Source of the DNA: Arthrobacter crystallopoietes
GTDB taxonomy: Bacteria > Actinomycetota > Actinomycetes > Actinomycetales > Micrococcaceae
NCBI RefSeq assembly: GCF_017603825.1
Contig: NZ_CP072014.1
Span: forward strand, 558,001-622,000
Reading direction: 5' to 3'
DNA: 64,000 bases
Below, in pieces: positions 45,729 to 58,947 of this stretch (positions are counted from its first letter, which is position 1; the number at the start of each line of letters is the position of its first letter). The notes under the pieces are model-generated. The model was not told the DNA's origin. It made no database searches and saw only the letters and a list, made by a program, of their open reading frames with translations. The position numbers and the translations under genes were made by a program.

Positions 45729-47084
45729 TCAGGCGGTGCCTCGCCGGATCAAGCGGCCGGTTGGCGTCTCGCCGCCGATCTCCGCGCCGCGGAGGAACGT
45801 CCGCCGCACGACGCCGGCCAGCGGCTTGCCGTCGTAGGGCGTGATCGGGTTCTTGTGCTTGAGCTTCTTCGCGTCCACCACGAAGCTTTCATCCGCGGCG
45901 AAGACGGAGAAGTCGGCGTCGTAACCCAGCGCCAGCTGGCCCTTCCGCGTCATCCGGGCGAGCTCGGCCGGCCGGCGGGACATCCAGTCCACTACCTGCT
46001 CCAGCGGGATCCCCCGCTGCCGGGCCTCGGTCCAGATCAGCGAGATCCCCAGTTGCAGCGAGGCAACGCCGCCCCAGGCCACGCCGAAGTCGCCGTTCTC
46101 CAGGTCCTTCAGGTCCAAGGTGCTGGGCGAATGGTCCGAGACGATGCAGTCGATGATGCCGTCCTCGAGGCCCTTCCACAGCAGTTCCCGGTTGGATGCC
46201 TCGCGGATGGGCGGGCAGCATTTGAACGCCGTCGCGCCGTTGGGGATTTCCTCTGCCAGCAGCGTGAGGTAGTGCGGGCAGGTCTCCACGGTGAGCTTCA
46301 CGCCGTCGCGCTTGGCACTGGCGATCATCGGCAGGGCATCGGAGGAAGACAGGTGCAGGATATGGGCGCGGGCGCCGGTCCAGCGGGCCCGCTCGATCAC
46401 CTCGGCGATGGCCACGTTTTCGGCCCCGCGCGGGCGGGAGGCGAGGAAGCGCTGGTACTGGTCGCCCTCGGCGTGCGGTGCACGCTCAATGGCCCGCGAA
46501 TCTTCGGCATGGACAATCATCAGCGAGTCGAAGGTCTTCAGCTCCGCCATGTCCTTTTCCATCTCGTCCGCATCCAGCGGCGGGAACTCGTCCACGCCTG
46601 AGTGCAGCAGGAAGCACTTGAAGCCGAAGACGCCCTCATCGTGCAGCGGCCGCAGGTCCCCGGTGTTGCCGGGCACCGCCCCGCCCCAAAAGCCCACGTC
46701 CACAAAGGCCTGGTCCCGAGCGGCGTTGCGCTTTTCCTCCAACGCGGCGGCGTTGATGGTGGGCGGGATGCTGTTCAACGGCATGTCAATGATGGTGGTC
46801 ACCCCGCCGGCGGCCGCGGCCCGGGTGGCGGAGGCGAAGCCCTCCCACTCGGTGCGGCCGGGCTCGTTGACGTGCACGTGCGTGTCCACCAGCCCGGGGA
46901 TCAGCGTTTCGTCCGCGGCGAGCTCAAGGACTTCGCGGCCGCGCAGTCCGTTGCCCAGCGGTTCGATGGCGACAATCGAGCCGTCCCGCACACCGACCTC
47001 GCGCGCGGCAACCCCCGCCGTCGTCAGGATCCGCTCGCCCCGAATGACCAGGTCGTATTCCGGTGAAGTTCCTTCGACGCCCAC
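45729..47084 (-). CDS. allB: allantoinase, 451 aa
   Basis: Hydrolyses allantoin to allantoate in purine degradation. It is a cyclic amidohydrolase with the metal site visible: His69 and His71 in VDTHVHVNEPG, the carboxylated Lys156 in FGFKCFLL, His192 in IVHAED, His244 in HILHLSS and Asp317 in VSDHSPS. Length fits. A GTG start follows the glycerate kinase stop with no gap, so it is the last gene of the hyi-tsr-gcl-glxK-allB operon. Confidence 0.95.
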   Translation of the reverse strand: MGVEGTSPEYDLVIRGERILTTAGVAAREVGVRDGSIVAIEPLGNGLRGREVLELAADETLIPGLVDTHVHVNEPGRTEWEGFASATRAAAAGGVTTIIDMPLNSIPPTINAAALEEKRNAARDQAFVDVGFWGGAVPGNTGDLRPLHDEGVFGFKCFLLHSGVDEFPPLDADEMEKDMAELKTFDSLMIVHAEDSRAIERAPHAEGDQYQRFLASRPRGAENVAIAEVIERARWTGARAHILHLSSSDALPMIASAKRDGVKLTVETCPHYLTLLAEEIPNGATAFKCCPPIREASNRELLWKGLEDGIIDCIVSDHSPSTLDLKDLENGDFGVAWGGVASLQLGISLIWTEARQRGIPLEQVVDWMSRRPAELARMTRKGQLALGYDADFSVFAADESFVVDAKKLKHKNPITPYDGKPLAGVVRRTFLRGAEIGGETPTGRLIRRGTA

Positions 47085-48257
47085 TTATGCTCCCCTCTGA
47101 GCTTCCAGTTCCCTGCCGCCGGCGATATCACCCGCCAGCAGCCGCAGTCCGATCTCCGCGCCGACGCGTTCGAGCAGCCCGCCCGCCTCAGCCATGCAGA
47201 CGGAGACGTCACTTTCAAGATCCGTCAAGGCGTATGTTTGCGCAAGCCCTGCCGATTCCAGCTGAGTGTCCGACAAAAGTGTACGGCCGCAGACCGCGAA
47301 AACGGGCACGCCGGCGGCCGCGGCTTCGGTGGCCACGCCGATGGGCGTCTTGCCTTCCAGGCTCTGGGCATCCAGGCTGCCCTCGCCCGTGATGACCAGC
47401 TCGGCCCCGGCGAGTTTGTCCCGCAGGCCGGTCAACTCAATAACGACGTCGATTCCGCGCCTGCGCTGCGCCTCCAGCACTGCCAGTGCCGCGAAACCCA
47501 CTCCGCCGGCGGCACCGGAGCCGGGCAGGTGTGCCATCGCGGCCGTGCCTGCTCCCAGTTCAGGACCGAGGACCCGCACAAACTGGGCCAGGGCGGCGTC
47601 CAGCGTTGCCACATCCTCCGCCGAGGCACCTTTCTGCGGACCGAACACCGCGGCGGCACCGTTCTCCCCCAGCAGCGGGTTGTCCACGTCGGAAGCCAGC
47701 ACGAAGGAAACGCCGGCCAGCCGCGGATCCAGGCCGGACAGGTCCACCTCGGCGAGCCGGGCCAAAGCCGCTCCGCCGCGCGGAAGGAACCGTCCGCCGT
47801 CGTCCTTCAGGATGGCCCCCAGGCCCTGGAGCAGCCCCGCGCCGCCGTCGGTGCAGGCGCTGCCGCCCACCCCGAGGATGATGCTGGTGCAGCCCAGATC
47901 CAGGGCCGCGCTGATCAGTTCCCCGGTACCCCGGCTGGTGGCGGTAAGCGCCTGCAGCTGGCCGCCGGGCAGCACGTCCAGCCCGGAGGCCGCGGCCATC
48001 TCGATCACGGCCTGTTGGCCCTTGACCGCGATGGCCGCCTCCAGCGGCATGCCGGTAGGTCCGGCAACGGTGGCGAGATGCCGCGTGTACCCCGCGCCGA
48101 CGGCGGCCTGAAGGGTGCCTTCTCCGCCGTCGGCCACGGGAACGTTGGTGACCTGGATGTCCGGGGCGACCGCCCGCAGGCCCCGCTCAACCGCCGCGGC
48201 CACTTCCGGGGCGGTGAGCGAGCCCTTGAACTTATCCGGTGCAATCACCACTTTCAT
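47085..48257 (-). CDS. glxK: glycerate kinase (GarK/GlxK type), 390 aa
   Basis: Phosphorylates D-glycerate with ATP to give phosphoglycerate for glycolysis; completes the glycerate branch of glyoxylate use. Family signs are VVIAPDKFKGSLTA at the start, VPVADGGEGTLQAAV, GVGGSACTDGGAG and LVITGEGSLDAQSLEGKTP. Length is normal. It starts just seven bases after the glyoxylate carboligase stop and runs into allB. Confidence 0.95.
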   Translation of the reverse strand: MKVVIAPDKFKGSLTAPEVAAAVERGLRAVAPDIQVTNVPVADGGEGTLQAAVGAGYTRHLATVAGPTGMPLEAAIAVKGQQAVIEMAAASGLDVLPGGQLQALTATSRGTGELISAALDLGCTSIILGVGGSACTDGGAGLLQGLGAILKDDGGRFLPRGGAALARLAEVDLSGLDPRLAGVSFVLASDVDNPLLGENGAAAVFGPQKGASAEDVATLDAALAQFVRVLGPELGAGTAAMAHLPGSGAAGGVGFAALAVLEAQRRRGIDVVIELTGLRDKLAGAELVITGEGSLDAQSLEGKTPIGVATEAAAAGVPVFAVCGRTLLSDTQLESAGLAQTYALTDLESDVSVCMAEAGGLLERVGAEIGLRLLAGDIAGGRELEAQRGA

Positions 48258-48264
48258 GGCAGGT

Positions 48265-50043
<1,779 letters not shown>

Positions 50044-50147: not shown

Positions 50148-51026
50148 TTACTTCCGGCCGGAGAGCTGCAGGACCTGCTTGAAGAGGCCCGAGTGGTCCA
50201 GTCCGCCGTCGCCCTGGTTGACGGTGGCGGCGACCAGCTGCGCAACGGCGGCGCCAAGCGGGATGGCCACGTTGGCTTCGCGGGCGGCGGAGGTCACGAT
50301 GCCGAGGTCCTTGTGGTGCAGGGCGAGGCGGAAGCCCGGGTCGAAGTTGCGGTCCAGCATCTTCTGGCCCTTCTGCTCCAGCACCTTCGAGCCGGCCAGG
50401 CCGCCGCCGAGCACCTTGAGTGCGGCGTCGGTGTCCACGCCGTAGGCCTCGAGGAAGGCGATGGCCTCGCCGAGGACTTCTATGTTCACGGCGACAATCA
50501 GCTGGTTGGCAGCCTTGACCGTCTGGCCGGAACCCGAGGGACCCACGTGCACAATGGTCTTGCCCACGGCGTCGAAAACATCCTGCGCGGCTTCGAAGTC
50601 GGCCGCCTCGCCGCCGACCATGATGGAGAGCACGCCGTCGATGGCGCCCTGCTCGCCGCCGGAGACCGGGGCGTCCAGCGGGCGGATGCCGGCGGCGCGG
50701 GCCTCTTCGGCGAGGCGGACGGCGACGTCGGGCCGGATGCTGCTGGCATCGATCCACAGTCCGCCCTGCTTGGCGTTGGCGAAGACGCCTTCCTCGCCGG
50801 TGACCACGGCTTCAACGTCCGGCGAGTCAGGCACCATGGTGATAACGACGTCGGCGTCCTTCACGGCGTCGGCGATGCTGTTGGCGCCCGTGCCGCCTTC
50901 GGCCGCCAGCTTGTCGATCTTGTCCTGGCTGCGGTTGAAGCCGGTAACACTGTGGCCGGCCTTGACGAGGTTGATGGCCATGGGCAGGCCCATGATGCCG
51001 AGTCCGATGACTGCAACGTTGGTCAT
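50148..51026 (-). CDS. glxR: 2-hydroxy-3-oxopropionate (tartronate semialdehyde) reductase, 292 aa
   Basis: Reduces tartronate semialdehyde to D-glycerate with NAD(P)H. A beta-hydroxyacid dehydrogenase with N-terminal Rossmann motif [17 protein letters not shown], substrate motif [12 protein letters not shown] and catalytic Lys171 in [11 protein letters not shown]. The close fit to GarR/GlxR and its place between hyi and gcl settle the assignment within the family. Confidence 0.94.
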
Positions 51027-51089: not shown

Positions 51090-51872
51090 TTAGCGGATGA
51101 GCCAGCCGAAAGCCTGCTCGGCTGGCGCCTTGTACTCGAGTCCGATGGGGCCCTGGTAGCCAAGTTGGCGGCTGCGGGAGATCCATTCGCCGAGCGGCAG
51201 TTCGCCGGTTCCGGGGGCGCCGCGGCCGGGGTTGTCCGCGATTTGGATGTGGCCGAAGTCCTTGGCGTGGTTCTCGATGACTGCCGCCACGTCGTCGCCA
51301 TTGACGGCCAGATGGTAGAAATCGGCGAGGAGCTTGATGTTCTGCGGCCCCTCGGCGTGGACCTTGCCGATCACGTCGAGTGCGTCCTGCGCCGTCTTGA
51401 GCGGGTAACGGTCGGCACCGGAAACAGGCTCGAGCAGGACGGTACCGCCGATCGCGGCGACGCCTTCGGCCGCGGCGACAAGGTTGGCCAGAGCCACTTC
51501 GTCCTGCGCCTCCGGGGTGTGCTCGTCCAGGCGGTTGCCGTAGAGCGCGTTGAAGGCCTTGCAGCCAAGGCGTTCGCCGATGCCGGCGACGACGGCGATG
51601 TTGTCCCGGAATTCGGCGTCGCGTCCCTTCCAGGAGACTAGGCCGCGATCCCCGCCCGGCATGTCACCGGCGTTGAAATTGAGCCCGGTGAGCTGGACGC
51701 CGGCGTCGTTGATCGCGCGCTCGAACGCAGTGACGTCGGCGTCACCGGGAACGGATTCGGCGAACGGCCACCAGAACTCCACGCTGTCGAAGCCGGCGGC
51801 GACGGCGGCCGCGGGGCGCTCCAGGAAAGGCAGTTCGGTGAAGAGGATGGAGCAGTTCACTGTGTAAGACAT
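51090..51872 (-). CDS. hyi: hydroxypyruvate isomerase, 260 aa
   Basis: Interconverts hydroxypyruvate and tartronate semialdehyde. TIM-barrel protein of the xylose-isomerase-like family, with the N-terminal YTVNCSILFTELPFLERP and FDSVEFWWPF, LNFNAGDMPGGDRGL, the metal ligand Glu in LLEPVSG, DFYHLAVNGDD and GHIQIADNPGRGAPGTGEL, all Hyi-typical. First gene of the operon; GAGGAAT precedes the ATG and two operator palindromes lie upstream. Confidence 0.94.
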   Translation of the reverse strand: MSYTVNCSILFTELPFLERPAAAVAAGFDSVEFWWPFAESVPGDADVTAFERAINDAGVQLTGLNFNAGDMPGGDRGLVSWKGRDAEFRDNIAVVAGIGERLGCKAFNALYGNRLDEHTPEAQDEVALANLVAAAEGVAAIGGTVLLEPVSGADRYPLKTAQDALDVIGKVHAEGPQNIKLLADFYHLAVNGDDVAAVIENHAKDFGHIQIADNPGRGAPGTGELPLGEWISRSRQLGYQGPIGLEYKAPAEQAFGWLIR

Positions 51873-51983: not shown

Positions 51984-52069
51984 ACTCTTTTCCATAGCCT
52001 AGTTGGCGGTTGCTTCAACTACTGTTTATCGATAGATTTACCTTGTTATTCGACAAGAAGGAGACTCCA

Positions 52070-52561
52070 TTGGGAAAGTTGACGGTTCTGGCGTTGCGCA
52101 CTGTGCTCGCGCTGCTGCTCGCCGGCTCGCTGTTCATCCAGGTGTGGATGGTCCCGCTGATCTCCACTGATCTGGAAGAGGCCGGCGCGGACACCGCCCT
52201 GCGCATCCTGTTCCTCATAATCGTGGTGCTGGGGATCGTCACGGTGCAAGTCACCATGGTCTGCGTGTGGCGGCTGTTGACGATGGTCCGCCGGGGAACG
52301 GTCTTCTCCGACGGCGCTTTCCGGTACGTGGACGTCATCTTCGGCGCGGTGGCGGCGGCGTCGGTCCTCATGTTCGGGCTTGCCGTCCTGTTGGCCCCGG
52401 GCGGTATTGCTCCCGGCATCGTCCTGTTGATCTGCGGAGCGTCCCTGCTGATCGCAGGGATGGCGCTGATCGTCCTGGTGCTGCGGAAGCTCCTGGCGCA
52501 GGCTGTCGCCCGCGACGTTGAAGCCAAGCATCTGCGGACCGAGCTGGACGAGGTGATTTGA
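52070..52561 (+). CDS. DUF2975 membrane protein, 163 aa
   Basis: Four helices: residues ~5-28, ~45-68, ~85-110 and ~117-140, followed by a charged helix (ARDVEAKHLRTELDEV). This is the usual DUF2975 pattern, found in Gram-positive bacteria directly before a small HTH gene. TTG is taken as the start because AAGGAGA lies six bases ahead and the protein then begins GKLTVLALR, as in relatives. Its stop overlaps the ATG of the HTH gene. Function unknown; possibly a membrane sensor that sequesters the regulator. Confidence 0.88.
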   Translation: MGKLTVLALRTVLALLLAGSLFIQVWMVPLISTDLEEAGADTALRILFLIIVVLGIVTVQVTMVCVWRLLTMVRRGTVFSDGAFRYVDVIFGAVAAASVLMFGLAVLLAPGGIAPGIVLLICGASLLIAGMALIVLVLRKLLAQAVARDVEAKHLRTELDEVI

Positions 52562-52788
52562 TGGCCATCATCGTCGACATCGACGTGATGCTGGCCAAGC
52601 GCAAGATGCCCGTGGGCGTGCTCGCGGAACGCGTCGGCATTACCCCCGCAAACCTCGCAGTGCTCAAAAACGGCCGTGCCAAGGCTGTTCGCTTCACCAC
52701 CCTCGCCGCCTTGTGCGAGGTACTCGATTGCCAGCCCGGAGATCTGCTGCGCTGGGAGCCCGGCGAGCCCGAGGAATCCCCGAATTAA
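52561..52788 (+). CDS. XRE-family helix-turn-helix regulator, 75 aa
   Basis: A single small HTH domain of the YozG/HTH_26 type: VDIDVMLAKRKMPVGVLAERVGI then TPANLAVLKNGRAKAVRF and LCEVLDCQPGDLLRWEP. Such partners of DUF2975 proteins are short DNA-binding proteins without an effector domain. Translation is coupled to the membrane gene (TGATG). A strong terminator follows. Confidence 0.9.
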   Translation: MAIIVDIDVMLAKRKMPVGVLAERVGITPANLAVLKNGRAKAVRFTTLAALCEVLDCQPGDLLRWEPGEPEESPN

Positions 52789-52867: not shown

Positions 52868-53686
52868 TCAGAGAACGATCTGGCGGTTCACGTCCTTGTA
52901 CAGCAGGTAGCGGAAGTTGGACGGGCCGCCGGCGTAGCAGGCCTGCGGGCAGAACGCGCGCAGCGACATGTAGTCGCCCTCCTGCACCTCGACCCAGTCC
53001 CCGTTCAGCCGGTACACCGCCTTGCCTTCGAGCACGTACAGGCCGTGCTCCATGACATGCGTTTCGGCGAACGGAATGGACGCGCCCGGCTCGAACGCGA
53101 CGATGTTGATGTGCATGTCGTACGCCAGGTCGTCGACCGGCAGCATCCGGGTGGTGCGCCACTTATTGTCCGTGCCCGGCATCGGGTTCGGCTCAAGATC
53201 CTGCTCGTTGCCGAACACCGGCTTCGCGGTGTAGCCCTCCAGTGCCTGGTACGCCTTGCGGATCCAGTGGAACTTGGCGGCGGCACCGCCGTCGTTCTTC
53301 ACCTGCCATTGGGAACCGGCCGGCGCGTAGGCGAAGCCGCCCGGGGCCAGAACGCGGTTTTCGCCTTCGATGGTGACGCTGAGTTCGCCGTCGACCACGA
53401 AGAGGAAGCCCTCCACCGTGCTCTGGGCCTCGGGCTTGGCCGAGCCGCCGCCCGGTGCAACCTCCATCAGGTACTGGGCGAAGGTGGTGGCGCCGCCGGC
53501 GACCGGGCGGTTAAGGATCCAGACGCGGGTGTCGTCCCATTCGGGCAGCACGCTGGTGACGATATCGCGCATGACGCCGCGCGGAATCACCGTGTAGGCC
53601 TCGGTGACGATGGCGCGGTCAGTCAGCAGGTCCGTCTGCGGCGGGTGGCCGGCCGGATTGGCGAAGTAGTTCGGCTGGTTAGTCAT
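52868..53686 (-). CDS. allE: (S)-ureidoglycine aminohydrolase, 272 aa
   Basis: Converts (S)-ureidoglycine to (S)-ureidoglycolate and ammonia in the ureide pathway. It is a bicupin: the C-terminal cupin shows the metal-binding pattern in PFAETHVMEHGLYVLEGKA and the N-terminal one is degenerate (EGFLFVVDGELSV). The start ATG at 53686 gives the usual N-terminus and overlaps the upstream gene's end by eight bases, so it is the last gene of the malic enzyme-aceB-CitE-like-allE operon. Confidence 0.93.
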   Translation of the reverse strand: MTNQPNYFANPAGHPPQTDLLTDRAIVTEAYTVIPRGVMRDIVTSVLPEWDDTRVWILNRPVAGGATTFAQYLMEVAPGGGSAKPEAQSTVEGFLFVVDGELSVTIEGENRVLAPGGFAYAPAGSQWQVKNDGGAAAKFHWIRKAYQALEGYTAKPVFGNEQDLEPNPMPGTDNKWRTTRMLPVDDLAYDMHINIVAFEPGASIPFAETHVMEHGLYVLEGKAVYRLNGDWVEVQEGDYMSLRAFCPQACYAGGPSNFRYLLYKDVNRQIVL

Positions 53687-54968
53687 GGGTTTCCTCGCTG
53701 GTGGAAGCGGATTGGGGATGGGCGATGGCCTCGAGCTGGGCAACGGACACCTCGGCCAGCCGCTCGAACTCCTTACTTTCGACGGCGCCGCAGACCAGTC
53801 CGCGGTGGAGGAAGCGGGCCAGGGCGCGGGCCGTTGCCGGTTCATCCATGATGGCGCTGTCGATGCCGTGGACATAGTTCTTCAACCGCACGGCGGCAGC
53901 CTCGAAGCCGTCCCGGTAGAAGGCGTAGGTGGCCAGGAAGCGGGTGGGCAGCTGGGCCGAATGCAGGTCCCAGCCCTGGTAGATGCCGCGTTCCAGGTGC
54001 CGGCGGACCAGACGTGCGTGCAAGGCCCACGCCTTGGCTACATTCTCCGCATCGCCGAGCGGCAGGATGTTGGTTGACCCGTCCGAGAGGTGGACGCCGG
54101 TGCCGGCCACGGCCACCTGCATGACGGCCTTGGCGTAGTCCGCGGCGGGGTGCTCCATGGACTGGTAGGCGGCCGCGATGCCCAGCGAGGCGCTGTAGTC
54201 ATAGGTGCCGTAGTGCAGCGAGCTGACCCGGCCTGCGCCGGCGTGGATCAGCTGCGCCACCGGTACCGTACCGTCCGCGGCGAGGATCAGTTGCGGCGTC
54301 TCCATCTGCACCTCGAAGCGCAGCCGTCCCGCGGGCAGGCCGTGCGCCTGCTCCAGCTGCTCGCAGGCAAAGACCATCGCCTGCACTTGGGCTATCGTGC
54401 TGACCTTGGGCAGCGTCAGCACCAGGCCCTGCGGCAGGCCGCGCTCTCCGGACTCCGCCACGAGTGCACCGATGAACCGGTCCAGCGTGCGCAGACCGCG
54501 GGCGCGGGTAGGCTCTTCGAAGCACTTGAACCGGATGCCGATGAACGGCGGAGCAGTGCCGGCGGCGACGGCCTGAGCCACAAGGGCGCCGGCCTTCAGC
54601 GCGTCGGCGTCCTCTTCCTCGTCCGCCCGGTTGCCGTAGCCGTCCTCGAAGTCCAGCCGCAGGTCCTCGATCGGCTCGCTTTCGAGCTTGCGGCGGACCA
54701 GTTCGGCCAGCTGGGCACTCTCCCCCAGGCCGAGGGAGGTGGCCAGTTGCTCCAGGCCGCCGTGTTCCTTCACCGCAGCGAGGGCGTCCCCGCCCCAGCG
54801 CGCGGCCAGGTCCAGGGTAAACGAGTCGGCCGGGACGTAGACCGTGTGGACCGGCTGGCGGCCGCTGCCCTCGCCCGGGTAGGCGGCGGACAGCAGCTCG
54901 TCGGTGGCGGCCAGGTCCGCGTCGATCCTGGCGGCAACAGCACCGGAGAGGGCAAGCTTGGGCGCCAT
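53679..54968 (-). CDS. CitE-superfamily protein (DUF6986-type), 429 aa, substrate unknown
   Basis: An HpcH/HpaI/CitE-like TIM barrel. Visible features are LRLDFEDGYGNRADEEEDADA (acidic metal/substrate loop), GIRFKCFEEPTRARGLRTLD, LTLPKVSTIAQV and FEVQMETPQ, where Glu would be a Mg2+ ligand. Malyl-CoA/citramalyl-CoA lyases and related thioesterases share this fold, but they are about 280-330 residues; this protein is longer. It is translated between malate synthase (TGATG overlap) and allE (eight-base overlap), which strongly suggests a step in ureide or glyoxylate metabolism, but the reaction is not known to me. Confidence 0.82.
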   Translation of the reverse strand: MAPKLALSGAVAARIDADLAATDELLSAAYPGEGSGRQPVHTVYVPADSFTLDLAARWGGDALAAVKEHGGLEQLATSLGLGESAQLAELVRRKLESEPIEDLRLDFEDGYGNRADEEEDADALKAGALVAQAVAAGTAPPFIGIRFKCFEEPTRARGLRTLDRFIGALVAESGERGLPQGLVLTLPKVSTIAQVQAMVFACEQLEQAHGLPAGRLRFEVQMETPQLILAADGTVPVAQLIHAGAGRVSSLHYGTYDYSASLGIAAAYQSMEHPAADYAKAVMQVAVAGTGVHLSDGSTNILPLGDAENVAKAWALHARLVRRHLERGIYQGWDLHSAQLPTRFLATYAFYRDGFEAAAVRLKNYVHGIDSAIMDEPATARALARFLHRGLVCGAVESKEFERLAEVSVAQLEAIAHPQSASTSEETHD

Positions 54969-56572
54969 CAGGAAACCAGCTCGTAGGCTGGAAGCGTCAG
55001 GAACTCCACGAAGCCCCCCTCGCCGATAGTCAGGTCCGCGATCAGCTTGCTGGCCGGCTCGTAGTACTTCGCGAACTTGTCGGCGTCGTTAATTTCACCG
55101 CGCAGTTTCTCGGTCTCCTCGGTGAGGATCCGCTCCACCAGCTCACGCGTCACCGTGTTGCCGGTGTCGGCCAGCGTGACCGTGTTGTGCAGCTGCTGCC
55201 AGACCTGGGTGCGGGAAATCTCCGCGGTGGCGGCGTCCTCCATCAGGTTGTGGATGGCCACGGCGCCGTTGCCGGAGATCCAGACAGCGGTGTAGGCAAC
55301 GGCAACGTACAGGTTCAGGCGCAGGCCCGCCTCGGTGACCTCGCCCTGGGCGGAGGATACGTCCAGCAACTGGGCCGCGGTGACCTCGACCTCGTCGCGG
55401 AGGCGGTCGACCTGGTTCGGCTTGTCGCCCAGCACCGCGTCGAAGATCTCGCGGCAGACCGGGACCAGGTCCGGGTGGGCCACCCAGGAACCGTCGAATC
55501 CGTCGTTCGCTTCGCGGGTCTTGTCCGCCCGGACCTTGGCGAAGGCCTGTTCGGTCACTTCGGGTTCCTTGCGGTTCGGGATGACCGCGGCCATGCCGCC
55601 CATGGCGAAGGCACCGCGGCGGTGGCAGGTCTTGACCAGCAGCTCGGTGTAGGCACGCATGAAGGGCGCCGTCATCGCCACGGAGGCCCGGTCCGGCATG
55701 ACGAAGCTTTCGCCGGCCTCGCGGAAGTACTTGATGATGCTGAACAGATAGTCCCAGCGACCGGCGTTCAGACCCGAGGCGTGGTCGCGCAGCTCGAACA
55801 GGATCTCGTCCATCTGGAACGCGGCCGGAATGGTTTCGATCAGCACCGTGGCGCGGACCGAACCCTGCGGCAGGCCCAGCTCGGCCTCGGCGAAGGAGAA
55901 GATGTCGTTCCACAGCCGGGCCTCGAGGTAGCTCTCGGTCTTCGGCAGGTAGTAGAAGGGTCCGTCGCCGCGCTCCAAGAGGTACTTCGCGTTGTGGAAG
56001 AAGTGCAGACCGAAATCCACCAGCGCGCCGACGGCCGGCTGGCCGTCGACCTGGATGTTCTTTTCCGGCAGGTGCCAGCCGCGGGGGCGCATGACCACAG
56101 TGGCCAGCGGCGCGTCGGTGCGCAGCCGGTACTCCTTGCCTTCGGGTGATGTGAACGAGAGCTCACCGCGTGCTGCGGCGGTCAGATTCGCCAGCGCGTC
56201 GATGACGTTTGGCCAGGTGGGGGTGGAAGCATCTTCCAGGTCGGCCAGCCATACCTTGGCACCGGAGTTCAGCGCGTTGATGGCCATCTTCGCCGGCGAT
56301 GCCGGTCCCGTCATTTCGACCCGGCGGTCCTGCAGCTTCTCCGGCGCCGGTGCGACCTTCCAGTCGCCCTCGCGGACATGCTTGGTTTCGGGCAGGAAGT
56401 CCAGCCCACCGGAGGCGACGGCCTTCTGCCGGTTGGTCACGCGGTCCGCCAGCAGGCCGTCGCGCGTGGCGGCGAACTTCTGGTGCAGCTTTTCCACGAA
56501 CCCCAGGGCTTCGGCCGTCAGGATCCTTTCGGCTCCGGCTACTGGTGCATTGTTGGTCACGGTGAGAGTCAT
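54968..56572 (-). CDS. aceB: malate synthase A, 534 aa
   Basis: Condenses glyoxylate with acetyl-CoA to malate. Type-A length and motifs: MRPRGWHLPEKNI with the active-site Arg, DFGLHFFHNAK, VRATVLIETIPAAFQMDEIL, LNAGRWDYLFSIIK and FAMGGMAAVIPNR, then GNGAVAIHNLMEDAATAEIS with the catalytic acidic residue nearby. No isocitrate lyase is adjacent, so glyoxylate is supplied by ureide breakdown here. It is preceded by malic enzyme in the same operon. Confidence 0.96.
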   Translation of the reverse strand: MTLTVTNNAPVAGAERILTAEALGFVEKLHQKFAATRDGLLADRVTNRQKAVASGGLDFLPETKHVREGDWKVAPAPEKLQDRRVEMTGPASPAKMAINALNSGAKVWLADLEDASTPTWPNVIDALANLTAAARGELSFTSPEGKEYRLRTDAPLATVVMRPRGWHLPEKNIQVDGQPAVGALVDFGLHFFHNAKYLLERGDGPFYYLPKTESYLEARLWNDIFSFAEAELGLPQGSVRATVLIETIPAAFQMDEILFELRDHASGLNAGRWDYLFSIIKYFREAGESFVMPDRASVAMTAPFMRAYTELLVKTCHRRGAFAMGGMAAVIPNRKEPEVTEQAFAKVRADKTREANDGFDGSWVAHPDLVPVCREIFDAVLGDKPNQVDRLRDEVEVTAAQLLDVSSAQGEVTEAGLRLNLYVAVAYTAVWISGNGAVAIHNLMEDAATAEISRTQVWQQLHNTVTLADTGNTVTRELVERILTEETEKLRGEINDADKFAKYYEPASKLIADLTIGEGGFVEFLTLPAYELVS

Positions 56573-56586
56573 GATGTTGCCTTCCT

Positions 56587-57972
56587 TTACTTGGCCGCTG
56601 CGGCCGACGCTACAGCTGCGGCGACGTCGGATGCCACGTGGGGGTCGAAAACACTGGGAATGATGAAGCTGGCGTTGAGCTCTTCGGCGGACACGCGGTC
56701 CGCAATGGCGTGGGCCGCGGCGACCAGCATCTCGGGCGTAATCTCCGAGACGCCGGCATCGAGCAACCCGCGGAAGAAACCGGGGAAGGCGAGCACGTTG
56801 TTGATCTGGTTGGGGAAATCGCTGCGTCCGGTAGCGACGACGGCGGCGTACTTCGCGGCGATCGCCGGGTCCACTTCGGGATCGGGATTGGCCATGGCGA
56901 AAATGATGGCGTCCTCGGCCATCGTGGCGACCTGCTCCTCGCCCAGCACGTTCGGTCCGCTGACGCCGATGAAGACATCGGCGCCGGCCACGGCATCGTG
57001 CAAGGTTCCGGTGAAGTTGTCCGGGTTCGTGTTCTCGGCCAGCCAGGTGCGGTGCGCATCGGTGTAGGTCTCGGTGCGGCTGATGGCGCCGTTGCGGCCG
57101 CAGGCAATGATGTTCAGGGCGCCCTGCGCCTTCAGCAGCTGGATGATCGCGTTGCCCGCGGCGCCGACGCCGGCCACCACAATCTTCACGTCCTCGATCT
57201 TCTTGTGGACTACCTTCAGCGCGTTCTGCAGCGCGGCCAGCGTGACGATCGCGGTACCGTGCTGGTCGTCGTGGAAGACCGGAATGTCGAGTTCATCGCG
57301 CAGCCGCTGCTCGATCTCGAAACAGCGCGGAGCGGCGATGTCTTCCAGGTTCACGCCGCCGTAGACCGGAGCCAGGGCCTTCACGATCTTGATGATCTCC
57401 TCGGTGTCCTGAGTATCCAGGCAGACCGGCCAGGCATCGACGTCCGCGAACTGCTTAAACAGTGCGGCCTTGCCCTCCATCACCGGCAGCGCGGCGGCAG
57501 GCCCGATGTTGCCCAGGCCCAGTACGGCGGAGCCGTCCGTCACCACGGCGATCGTGTTGCGCTTCACCGTGAGGCGGCGCGCATCGTCCGGGTTCTCGGC
57601 GATGGCCATGCAGACACGTGCGACGCCGGGCGTATAGGCGCGGGACAGATCGTCACGGTTGCGCAGGGGAACCTTGGGGACGACTTCCAGCTTGCCGCCG
57701 AGGTGCATGAGGAAGGTGCGGTCGCTGACCTTACGGACCTGCACGCCGTCGAGCTCGTCCAGCGCAGCGCTGACCCGCTCGCCGTGGGCGGCGTCAACAG
57801 TGTTGCAGCTGATGTCCACAACCATGCTGTCGTGGTGGCTCTCGGTCACGTCAAGTGCCGTGATGGCTGCACCGGCGGCAGCAACAGCGGCTGCGAGCTC
57901 GCTGGTAGCGGTAAAGCTTGCAGGGGTTTCCACACGCAGGGTTATCGAGTACCCGGGGCTGGGAGTCGCCAT
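56587..57972 (-). CDS. NAD(P)-dependent malic enzyme with N-terminal ACT domain, 461 aa
   Basis: Oxidatively decarboxylates malate to pyruvate. Residues ~1-85 form an ACT-like regulatory domain ([25 protein letters not shown]); then the malic enzyme core with [47 protein letters not shown] (metal-binding Asp pair) and the Rossmann motif [12 protein letters not shown]. First gene of the operon; an operator-like palindrome lies about 40 bases upstream. With malate synthase and pyruvate dehydrogenase it would form a cycle that oxidises glyoxylate to CO2. Confidence 0.94.
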
Positions 57973-58013
57973 TGATTCTCCTCTGTTTCTGGGGCCGGAC
58001 CGGCCTAAGTAGT

Positions 58014-58140
58014 TTCCGTATTATGGATATTATTATCTAAGAGGTGGAAATACAACCACCTCGGCCAGATTTTCTTTCGACAGGCGGAAAATTGCGCCGC
58101 AATTGCGGTATGTTTGAGAGAGCAGTTCCACGAAGTGGAT
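58014..58140. promoter_or_regulatory. operator palindromes in the malic enzyme-IclR divergent promoter region
   Basis: TTCCGTATTATGGAT (58014-58028) lies just upstream of malic enzyme and TTCCACGAAGTGGAT (58126-58140) 42 bases before the IclR ATG. Both follow the TTCC-N7-GGAA form of the hyi sites with one end mismatch. Between them is another palindrome, ATTGCGCCGCAAT (58091-58103). This suits autoregulation and control of the malic enzyme operon by the IclR protein. Confidence 0.7.
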
Positions 58141-58182
58141 ATTTTCAAGAAACGCGTTCAAGCAATGTGAGAGTGAGTTCCC

Positions 58183-58947
58183 ATGGCAGAGAAAGCCAGC
58201 GGAGGCGTCCAGTCAGTAGAGAGGGCTTTCGAGCTGCTCGAGCTCATCACCAATGCGGGCGGAGAGGTCACCCTCAGTGAGCTGTCGTCGTTCACATCGC
58301 TGCCCCTGCCCACCATCCACCGGCTGCTGCGGACCCTGGTTTCGCTGGGCTACGTCCGGCAGCTCGCCAACCGGCGGTACTCGCTGGGCCCGCGCCTGAT
58401 CCGCCTGGGCGAAGTCGCCAACAAGCAGCTCGGCTCCCTGGCCCGGCCGCACCTGAAGAACCTGGTTGAGACTCTGGGTGAATCTGCGAACATGGCTGTA
58501 CTGGACTCCGAGATGGTGGTCTACATCGCCCAGGTTCCGTCACCGCATTCCATGCGCATGTTCACCGAAGTCGGCCGCCGCGCCCACACCCACGACACCG
58601 GCGTCGGCAAGGCGATCCTCGCCCAGCTGGAAGACGACGCCGTCCGCGACATCGTGACGCGCGCCGGCATGCCGACACCGACGGAGATGAGCATTGGCAA
58701 CATCTCCGACCTCATGCTGGAGTTGAAGAACATCCGCGAGCGCGGCTACTCCATCGATGAGCAGGAGCAGGAAATCGGCGTGCGCTGCTTCGCGATGGCC
58801 GTACCGGACGCTCCCACTCCCATGGCCATCTCCGTCTCGGGACCCGTTTCGCGCGTGGATGACGCGTTTGCCAAGCGGGCAGTGCCGCTCCTGCAGAGCG
58901 CCGCGGAGCAGATCTCGGCGCAGCTGAACGCGGCCGCAGCGAGCTAG
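58183..58947 (+). CDS. IclR-family regulator of the purine/glyoxylate genes, 254 aa
   Basis: N-terminal winged HTH (VQSVERAFELLELITNAGG, LSSFTSLPLPTIHRLLRTL) and C-terminal GAF-like effector domain (YIAQVPSPHSMRMFTEVGRR, HTHDTGVGKAILAQL, GYSIDEQEQEIGVRCFA). The family includes AllR, which senses glyoxylate or allantoin and represses ureide genes; the neighbours suggest the same role here. It is divergent from malic enzyme and has a palindrome in its own promoter. Confidence 0.92.
   Translation: MAEKASGGVQSVERAFELLELITNAGGEVTLSELSSFTSLPLPTIHRLLRTLVSLGYVRQLANRRYSLGPRLIRLGEVANKQLGSLARPHLKNLVETLGESANMAVLDSEMVVYIAQVPSPHSMRMFTEVGRRAHTHDTGVGKAILAQLEDDAVRDIVTRAGMPTPTEMSIGNISDLMLELKNIRERGYSIDEQEQEIGVRCFAMAVPDAPTPMAISVSGPVSRVDDAFAKRAVPLLQSAAEQISAQLNAAAAS

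Follow-up and report, generated by a model that had tools for sequence, protein, structure and literature searches.

DUF6986, a Protein Family with the Malyl-CoA Lyase Fold, as a Probable Ureidoglycolate Lyase in Purine-Degrading Actinomycetota

Introduction

The described ureidoglycolate lyases belong to the AllA/DAL3 family (PF04115) and catalyze the release of urea from ureidoglycolate (EC 4.3.2.3). AllA is nickel-dependent (PMC3793230). The same compound is likewise consumed by UAH, an M20 enzyme, and by AllD, an Ldh_2 enzyme (PMC3793230); these are of other families and form other products. Ureidoglycolate is called unstable (PMC3793230), and it may partly decay without an enzyme. For Arthrobacter sp. 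Rue61a, allantoin was reported to support growth, also as the nitrogen source, although candidate genes "were not obvious" for the route that leads from allantoate to glyoxylate (PMC3534580).

A second group of enzymes is relevant here because of its fold. The malyl-CoA lyases of R. sphaeroides (4L9Y) and C. aurantiacus (4L80) consist of a TIM barrel and a C-terminal lid. The residues presented in the structural account as conserved throughout the superfamily are Asp42, Glu44, Asp45, Arg76, Glu141, Asp168, and Asp299 of the lid (R. sphaeroides numbering), with exceptions at two of these positions in some subgroups (PMC3832036). In malyl-CoA lyase, Mg2+ and the acid are bound by these residues, which also accept the proton of the hydroxyl group and donate one back to the enolate as it leaves (PMC3832036).

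In this report, we describe a gene from Arthrobacter crystallopoietes that lies in an analyzed stretch of 64,000 nucleotides (the window) and encodes a protein of DUF6986 (PF22484), a Pfam family without a named function. From co-occurrence, gene context, and fold, DUF6986 is very likely a ureidoglycolate lyase of a non-AllA family with the CitE/malyl-CoA lyase fold. The reaction itself is known already; DUF6986 as a family for it would be new. Among the open-licence papers searched, none names DUF6986, and no CitE-type ureidoglycolate enzyme was found among the matches listed.

Results

The gene of interest is part of a run on the minus strand of the window. The genes of this run, in order from its head, and the divergent regulator are as follows.

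56587..57972, minus strand, malic enzyme, the first gene of the run (over the Pfam cut-off; NCBIfam models below theirs)
54968..56572, minus strand, aceB, malate synthase A (722 bits, cut-off 594.5)
53679..54968, minus strand, DUF6986 (PF22484) protein of 429 aa, proposed (S)-ureidoglycolate lyase (from Pfam, the structural model, and co-occurrence)
52868..53686, minus strand, allE, (S)-ureidoglycine aminohydrolase, which makes ureidoglycolate (469 bits, cut-off 338)
51090..51872, minus strand, hyi, hydroxypyruvate isomerase-like (best model below its cut-off)
50148..51026, minus strand, glxR, tartronate semialdehyde reductase (over cut-off)
48265..50043, minus strand, gcl, glyoxylate carboligase (over cut-off)
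47085..48257, minus strand, presumably a glycerate kinase-like gene (named from the sequence)
45729..47084, minus strand, allB, allantoinase AllB (over cut-off)
58183..58947, plus strand, IclR-family regulator, divergent from the head of the run (best model BhcR, below cut-off)

The DUF6986 gene is an open frame of 429 codons that begins with ATG and ends with TAA. The overlaps with both neighbors that were noted in the original prediction were confirmed in the sequence. The stop codon of aceB and the start codon of DUF6986 share the letters TGATG, and the final eight bases of DUF6986 (53679-53686) double as the opening eight bases of allE. The prediction also had a genuine malate synthase next door, and the score of aceB bears this out; a second copy of malate synthase A is found elsewhere in the genome (G000:C1:1179903-1181432). 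Two small frames on the plus strand (52010-52788) break the run between hyi and allE, and the first of these is membrane-like by eye.

The window protein was found to match PF22484 from residue 19 to residue 419 with an E-value of 2.6e-171 and a score of 570.4 bits against a gathering score of 27. Profile positions 1-407 of 408 are covered, which makes this a full-length DUF6986 match. The match to HpcH_HpaI is weak (22.5 bits, under the cut-off of 25), the haloarchaeal malyl-CoA lyase model of NCBIfam gave 21.2 bits where 500 is required, and a Pfam scan of the protein gave no match to PF04115. The earlier statement that the protein exceeds the malyl-CoA lyases by about 100 residues agrees with the respective lengths, 429 residues against 318 and 348 (PMC3832036).

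It had further been claimed that the window holds no gene for a ureidoglycolate lyase, dehydrogenase, or amidohydrolase. No match to PF04115 was obtained anywhere in the 4.38-Mb, single-contig genome to which the window belongs (G000), and no protein scored over the AllD cut-off. The sole Ldh_2 protein (PF02615) of this genome was rejected as AllD at 188.6 bits against 496.2; L-sulfolactate dehydrogenase is the better fit with 251 bits, although this score too falls short of its cut-off (500). Amidohydrolases were searched for with the AllC model, by which seven AllC-like M20 stretches were found in the genome; the best reached 205 bits, far from the cut-off of 597.75, and none is inside the window. 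A genome-wide search for allantoicase in G000 also gave no match. Two further genomes, G002 and G187, encode AllE and DUF6986 and gave no match to AllA, allantoicase, Ldh_2 (the AllD family), or an AllC-like protein. PF02615 was over its cut-off in 13 of the 47 genomes searched for it (43 of the 67 DUF6986 genomes described below and four exceptions).

AllC itself was over its cut-off in none of the 14 class genomes with AllE, and three of the 14 had no AllC-like match at all. The AllE genomes flagged for this question are the window genome, G002, G187, and G129.

The distribution of DUF6986 was determined in 197 actinomycete genomes (the class survey), where matches were counted at E < 1e-90. 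Strong matches were found in 67 genomes, and a match of any kind at E <= 0.001 was found in 135. The 68 genomes left out of the count comprise one with a fragment (G153, 2e-25) and 67 with weak matches (about 6e-4 to 9e-14), which we take for CitE paralogues; the 18 that were fetched look so from their sequences. A few of the matches in the count are split or contain an internal stop (G068, G085, G151, and G172). Allantoicase was found in 56 of the 197 genomes and AllE, over its cut-off, in 14, after 30 genomes with weak cupin matches had been dropped. Allantoicase and AllE were never found in the same genome (0/197), and the common factor between them is the product, ureidoglycolate.

Allantoicase or AllE is encoded in 66 of the 67 DUF6986 genomes of this survey, and DUF6986 is found in 66 of the 70 genomes with allantoicase or AllE, including 52 of the 56 with allantoicase. 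The phi coefficient for this association is 0.945, with a Fisher p of ~1e-46 that ignores shared descent (n = 197). Among 109 close relatives of the window genome, which partly overlap the class set, the two sets were identical (45 = 45, phi 1.0). The 45 positive relatives have AllE over its cut-off in 42 cases and allantoicase in three; two weak AllE matches were dropped, and DUF6986 of G238 is in two pieces. A survey of the phylum (296 genomes) covered allantoicase and DUF6986. Outside the class, DUF6986 was found in 13 genomes, all 13 with allantoicase, and in 13 of the 14 genomes with allantoicase. Twelve genera, counted by eye, contain both positive and negative genomes in which the genes are present or absent together (g7, g28, g35, g43, g46, g48, g49, g52, g66, g96, g114, and g120), which argues that the link is not only one of inheritance. 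Three genera have discordant genomes: g13 (G003, G049, and G159), g27 (G017), and g70 (G152).

AllA is too rare for an anti-correlation of allA with DUF6986 to be seen: it is matched in three of the 197 class genomes, two of which also have DUF6986 (G100 and G129, both weak AllA matches). The AllA-family match in G129 adjoins an amidase-like frame (named by eye), is distant from the purine genes, and was set aside.

Four class genomes have allantoicase and no DUF6986. Three of these (G003, G049, and G159; completeness 100) are of genus g13 and are also without malate synthase A and AllA. In the fourth, G017, the contig ends about 1.9 kb past allantoicase, and a DUF222/HNH frame is found where a sister genome has DUF6986. 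A DUF6986 gene hidden at this contig edge was considered and rejected because the frame there is DUF222/HNH, and G017 therefore remains an exception. Outside the class, G376 has allantoicase and no DUF6986, and its contig ends at allantoicase. In the opposite direction, G152, an assembly of 850 contigs, has DUF6986 and neither allantoicase nor AllE. The g28 genome G153, with no allantoicase match, retains only a truncated remnant of DUF6986 (G153:C1:235264-235554), as if the two genes had been lost together. Two of the g13 genomes without DUF6986 carry, immediately behind one allantoicase gene, a gene for a protein of 188-191 aa (L088:7430-7996 and L091:9693-10268). Neither Pfam nor NCBIfam gave a match for the L088 copy, and the protein may be another ureidoglycolate enzyme.

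Gene order was compared in two sets of loci. The class loci (L021-L086) are the stretches round DUF6986 in the class genomes with a strong match, 66 once G000 is set aside, and the named loci are the best 80 of 578 relatives, mostly from Arthrobacter, Microbacterium, Mycolicibacterium, Brevibacterium, and kin. An allE (71) or allantoicase (1) gene lies within 10 kb of DUF6986 in 72 of the 80 named loci. The fetched stretch contains allantoicase or allE in 38 of the 66 class loci and some ureide gene in 41; allantoicase or allE is not within it in 28 class loci and eight named loci. DUF6986 is often part of operons that span uricase to allantoicase. Two orders are typical, namely xdh-allB-alc-DUF6986-OHCU decarboxylase-uricase (in L036) and xdh-xdhC-DUF6986-uricase-OHCU decarboxylase-allB-allE (in L028-L033). 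The 1.5-Mb genome G193 has five genes head to tail, namely malic enzyme, aceB, allB, alc, and DUF6986. This row is a path from allantoin to pyruvate in which only the ureidoglycolate step is unnamed.

These data bear on the proposal that DUF6986 uses glyoxylate rather than ureidoglycolate, as a malyl-CoA lyase/synthase or another glyoxylate aldolase that clears the glyoxylate derived from purines. DUF6986 shares its predicted fold and its catalytic residues with the malyl-CoA lyases, aceB is near DUF6986 in 45 of the 80 named loci, and malate synthase A is encoded in 61 of the 67 DUF6986 genomes. As a control, malate synthase A was found in 103 of the 197 class genomes, but 42 of these 103 are without DUF6986, and the phi coefficient between the two is 0.557 against 0.945 for allantoicase/AllE. 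Within the genomes with malate synthase A, the phi coefficient of DUF6986 with allantoicase/AllE is 0.96, and within those without it is 0.80. DUF6986 thus belongs with the enzymes that make ureidoglycolate and not with this user of glyoxylate. In the class loci, aceB or gcl is found in eight of 66, against 38 of 66 for allantoicase or allE, and a glyoxylate user would leave the ureidoglycolate step unfilled. We consider this proposal very unlikely, and the side reaction with malyl-CoA that the original prediction had allowed for fits less well than a step at ureidoglycolate.

A search of solved structures with the single sequence of the window protein gave nothing up to E = 1; the same search with a 26-row profile found malyl-CoA lyases. 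An AlphaFold model was obtained from the window protein together with 47 sequences of the named loci, picked for spread, with a pLDDT of 89.3 and a pTM of 0.86. The modeled protein has the TIM barrel and the C-terminal lid, like that of malyl-CoA lyase, which mark the CitE-like superfamily. Its nearest structure is the malyl-CoA lyase of R. sphaeroides (4l9y), with a Z of 25.9, an rmsd of 3.1 over 292 residues, and 16% identity. It is closely followed by further malyl-CoA lyases, CLYBL, malate synthases, and CitE, of which several are within 1 Z and therefore tied. Malate synthase A (3cv2, Z 22.8), the product of the neighboring gene, has a related fold and uses glyoxylate-metal chemistry, but it is of a separate family.

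Residues D106, E108, D109, R146, E223, and D257 are invariant in 26 of 26 sequences of one alignment (the window protein and 25 class loci) and in 48 of 48 of another (the window protein and 47 named loci). The positions of R146, E223, and D257 were aligned to 4l9y, with an inferred tag offset of 21, and those of D106, E108, and D109 to CitE paralogues. D375 is also invariant in the 26 and the 48 sequences and is part of a DEPAT motif that resembles the DEAS of the CitE paralogues. It was tentatively assigned to the lid aspartate (Asp299) by motif and position, the profile alignment ending at residue 340. Six catalytic positions are aligned and the seventh is tentatively placed by motif. R104, H252, Q331, W333, and D334 are invariant as well and lie outside the set named above (PMC3832036). 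The DUF6986 proteins differ from the malyl-CoA lyases in being about 80-110 residues longer, in forming a Pfam family of their own, and in being tied to ureide genes.

In the Streptomyces-like genus g28, DUF6986 is found in 14 genomes and is not near allantoicase. A word search of the DUF6986 promoters of this genus, with gene starts predicted by an in-house gene caller, gave an IclR-type palindrome, TTCNGN5CNGAA. In 9 of 14 genomes, the 150 bases upstream of DUF6986 contain an exact copy, and in 12 of 14 a copy with up to one mismatch, against 1 and 13, respectively, of 216 other genes of the same loci; since the palindrome was picked from these promoters, the g28 counts do not test it independently. 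The start of allB has an exact copy nearby in 6 of 14 genomes and, if one mismatch is allowed, in 11 of 14; for the start of aceB, the corresponding numbers are 0 of 10 and 1 of 10 Streptomyces-like loci. Of 78 named loci (from the best 80 of 578 relatives), 12 have the exact palindrome close to the head of the operon, compared with 59 of 4000 random stretches, and it is therefore enriched there but far from universal. In the window, two copies were located in the divergent promoter region (57973-58182).

58075..58089, no strand assigned, candidate IclR-type operator with one mismatch to TTCNGN5CNGAA
58014-58028, no strand assigned, copy of the palindrome with two mismatches

Sites with no more than one mismatch number 37 in the window, and the one at 58075..58089 therefore proves nothing by itself. 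Regulators that resemble the IclR-family protein of the window are present in some of the DUF6986 or allantoicase loci. The shared operator-like palindrome suggests, at the level of sequence, that DUF6986 may be under the control of the allantoin repressor.

Discussion

The original prediction of a previously undescribed step from ureidoglycolate to glyoxylate is supported by the phi coefficients of 0.945 (197 genomes) and 1.0 (109 genomes), by the occurrence of AllA in only 3 of the 197, and by the invariance of the lyase residues. Ureidoglycolate can be regarded as a glyoxylate unit in which urea replaces acetyl-CoA, and the machinery of malyl-CoA lyase could therefore release urea. The substrate, products, stereochemistry, metal, and residue roles that we infer for DUF6986 are as follows. 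The enzyme would convert (S)-ureidoglycolate to glyoxylate and urea, a reaction known from the different family of AllA and DAL3 (EC 4.3.2.3). E223 and D257 would hold a divalent metal, accompanied by two waters on E108 and D109, and this metal would bind the carboxylate and the hydroxyl group of ureidoglycolate. R146, positioned by D106, would take the proton of the hydroxyl group, and the C-N bond of this small, CoA-free substrate would then break in the manner of the C-C bond of malyl-CoA. The leaving nitrogen of urea would be protonated by D375, a residue of the C-terminal lid, and the glyoxylate would pass to the neighboring malate synthase or glyoxylate carboligase. We know of no C-N lyase in the CitE-like superfamily.

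Co-occurrence by itself cannot separate a lyase from another reaction of ureidoglycolate. An amidohydrolase that forms ammonia and CO2, or an enzyme that changes the stereochemistry of ureidoglycolate, would have an identical distribution. To our knowledge, the ureidoglycolate amidohydrolases that have been described are M20 enzymes, which counts against the former, and a racemase would not account for the cleavage. The superfamily residues, as they are presented in the structural account, serve bond cleavage beside a metal-bound 2-oxo or 2-hydroxy acid (PMC3832036), and we judge another reaction of this kind to be quite improbable. It is more improbable still that DUF6986 catalyzes an earlier ureide step, such as the cleavage of allantoate, or is an accessory protein: the lack of AllC over its cut-off in the AllE genomes would allow for such a role ahead of AllE, but DUF6986 is equally tied to allantoicase (52/56), which already makes ureidoglycolate from allantoate, and AllE of the window is itself above the cut-off of the NCBIfam model for a bifunctional allantoicase/(S)-ureidoglycine aminohydrolase (NF040771; 453 bits, cut-off 350). 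As this model implies, the actinobacterial AllE may by itself turn allantoate into ureidoglycolate.

With the lyase reading of DUF6986, a wider proposal can be made. DUF6986 is likely a CoA-independent C-N lyase, drawn from the malyl-CoA lyase/CitE superfamily, that replaces AllA in most purine-degrading Actinomycetota, catalyzes the final step in the catabolism of the purine ring, and serves both the allantoicase and the AllE routes. If this is correct, a function would be available for a Pfam family present in 67 of the 197 sampled actinomycete genomes, and the last step in the use of uric acid and allantoin would be filled in most of the ureidoglycolate-making genomes considered here. The nitrogen would be released as urea and not as ammonia, and the cells would consequently need urease or urea carboxylase.

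A DUF6986 protein with 63% identity to the window protein was also found in a gammaproteobacterial record (L153; NZ_PGGC01000077.1, Aeromonas cavernicola, GC 53%), in the order aceB-DUF6986-allE-glxR-gcl, either through contamination or through horizontal transfer. In the genus of the window, second copies were observed for DUF6986 in G201 (C92 and C37) and for AllE in G197 (C51 and C98).
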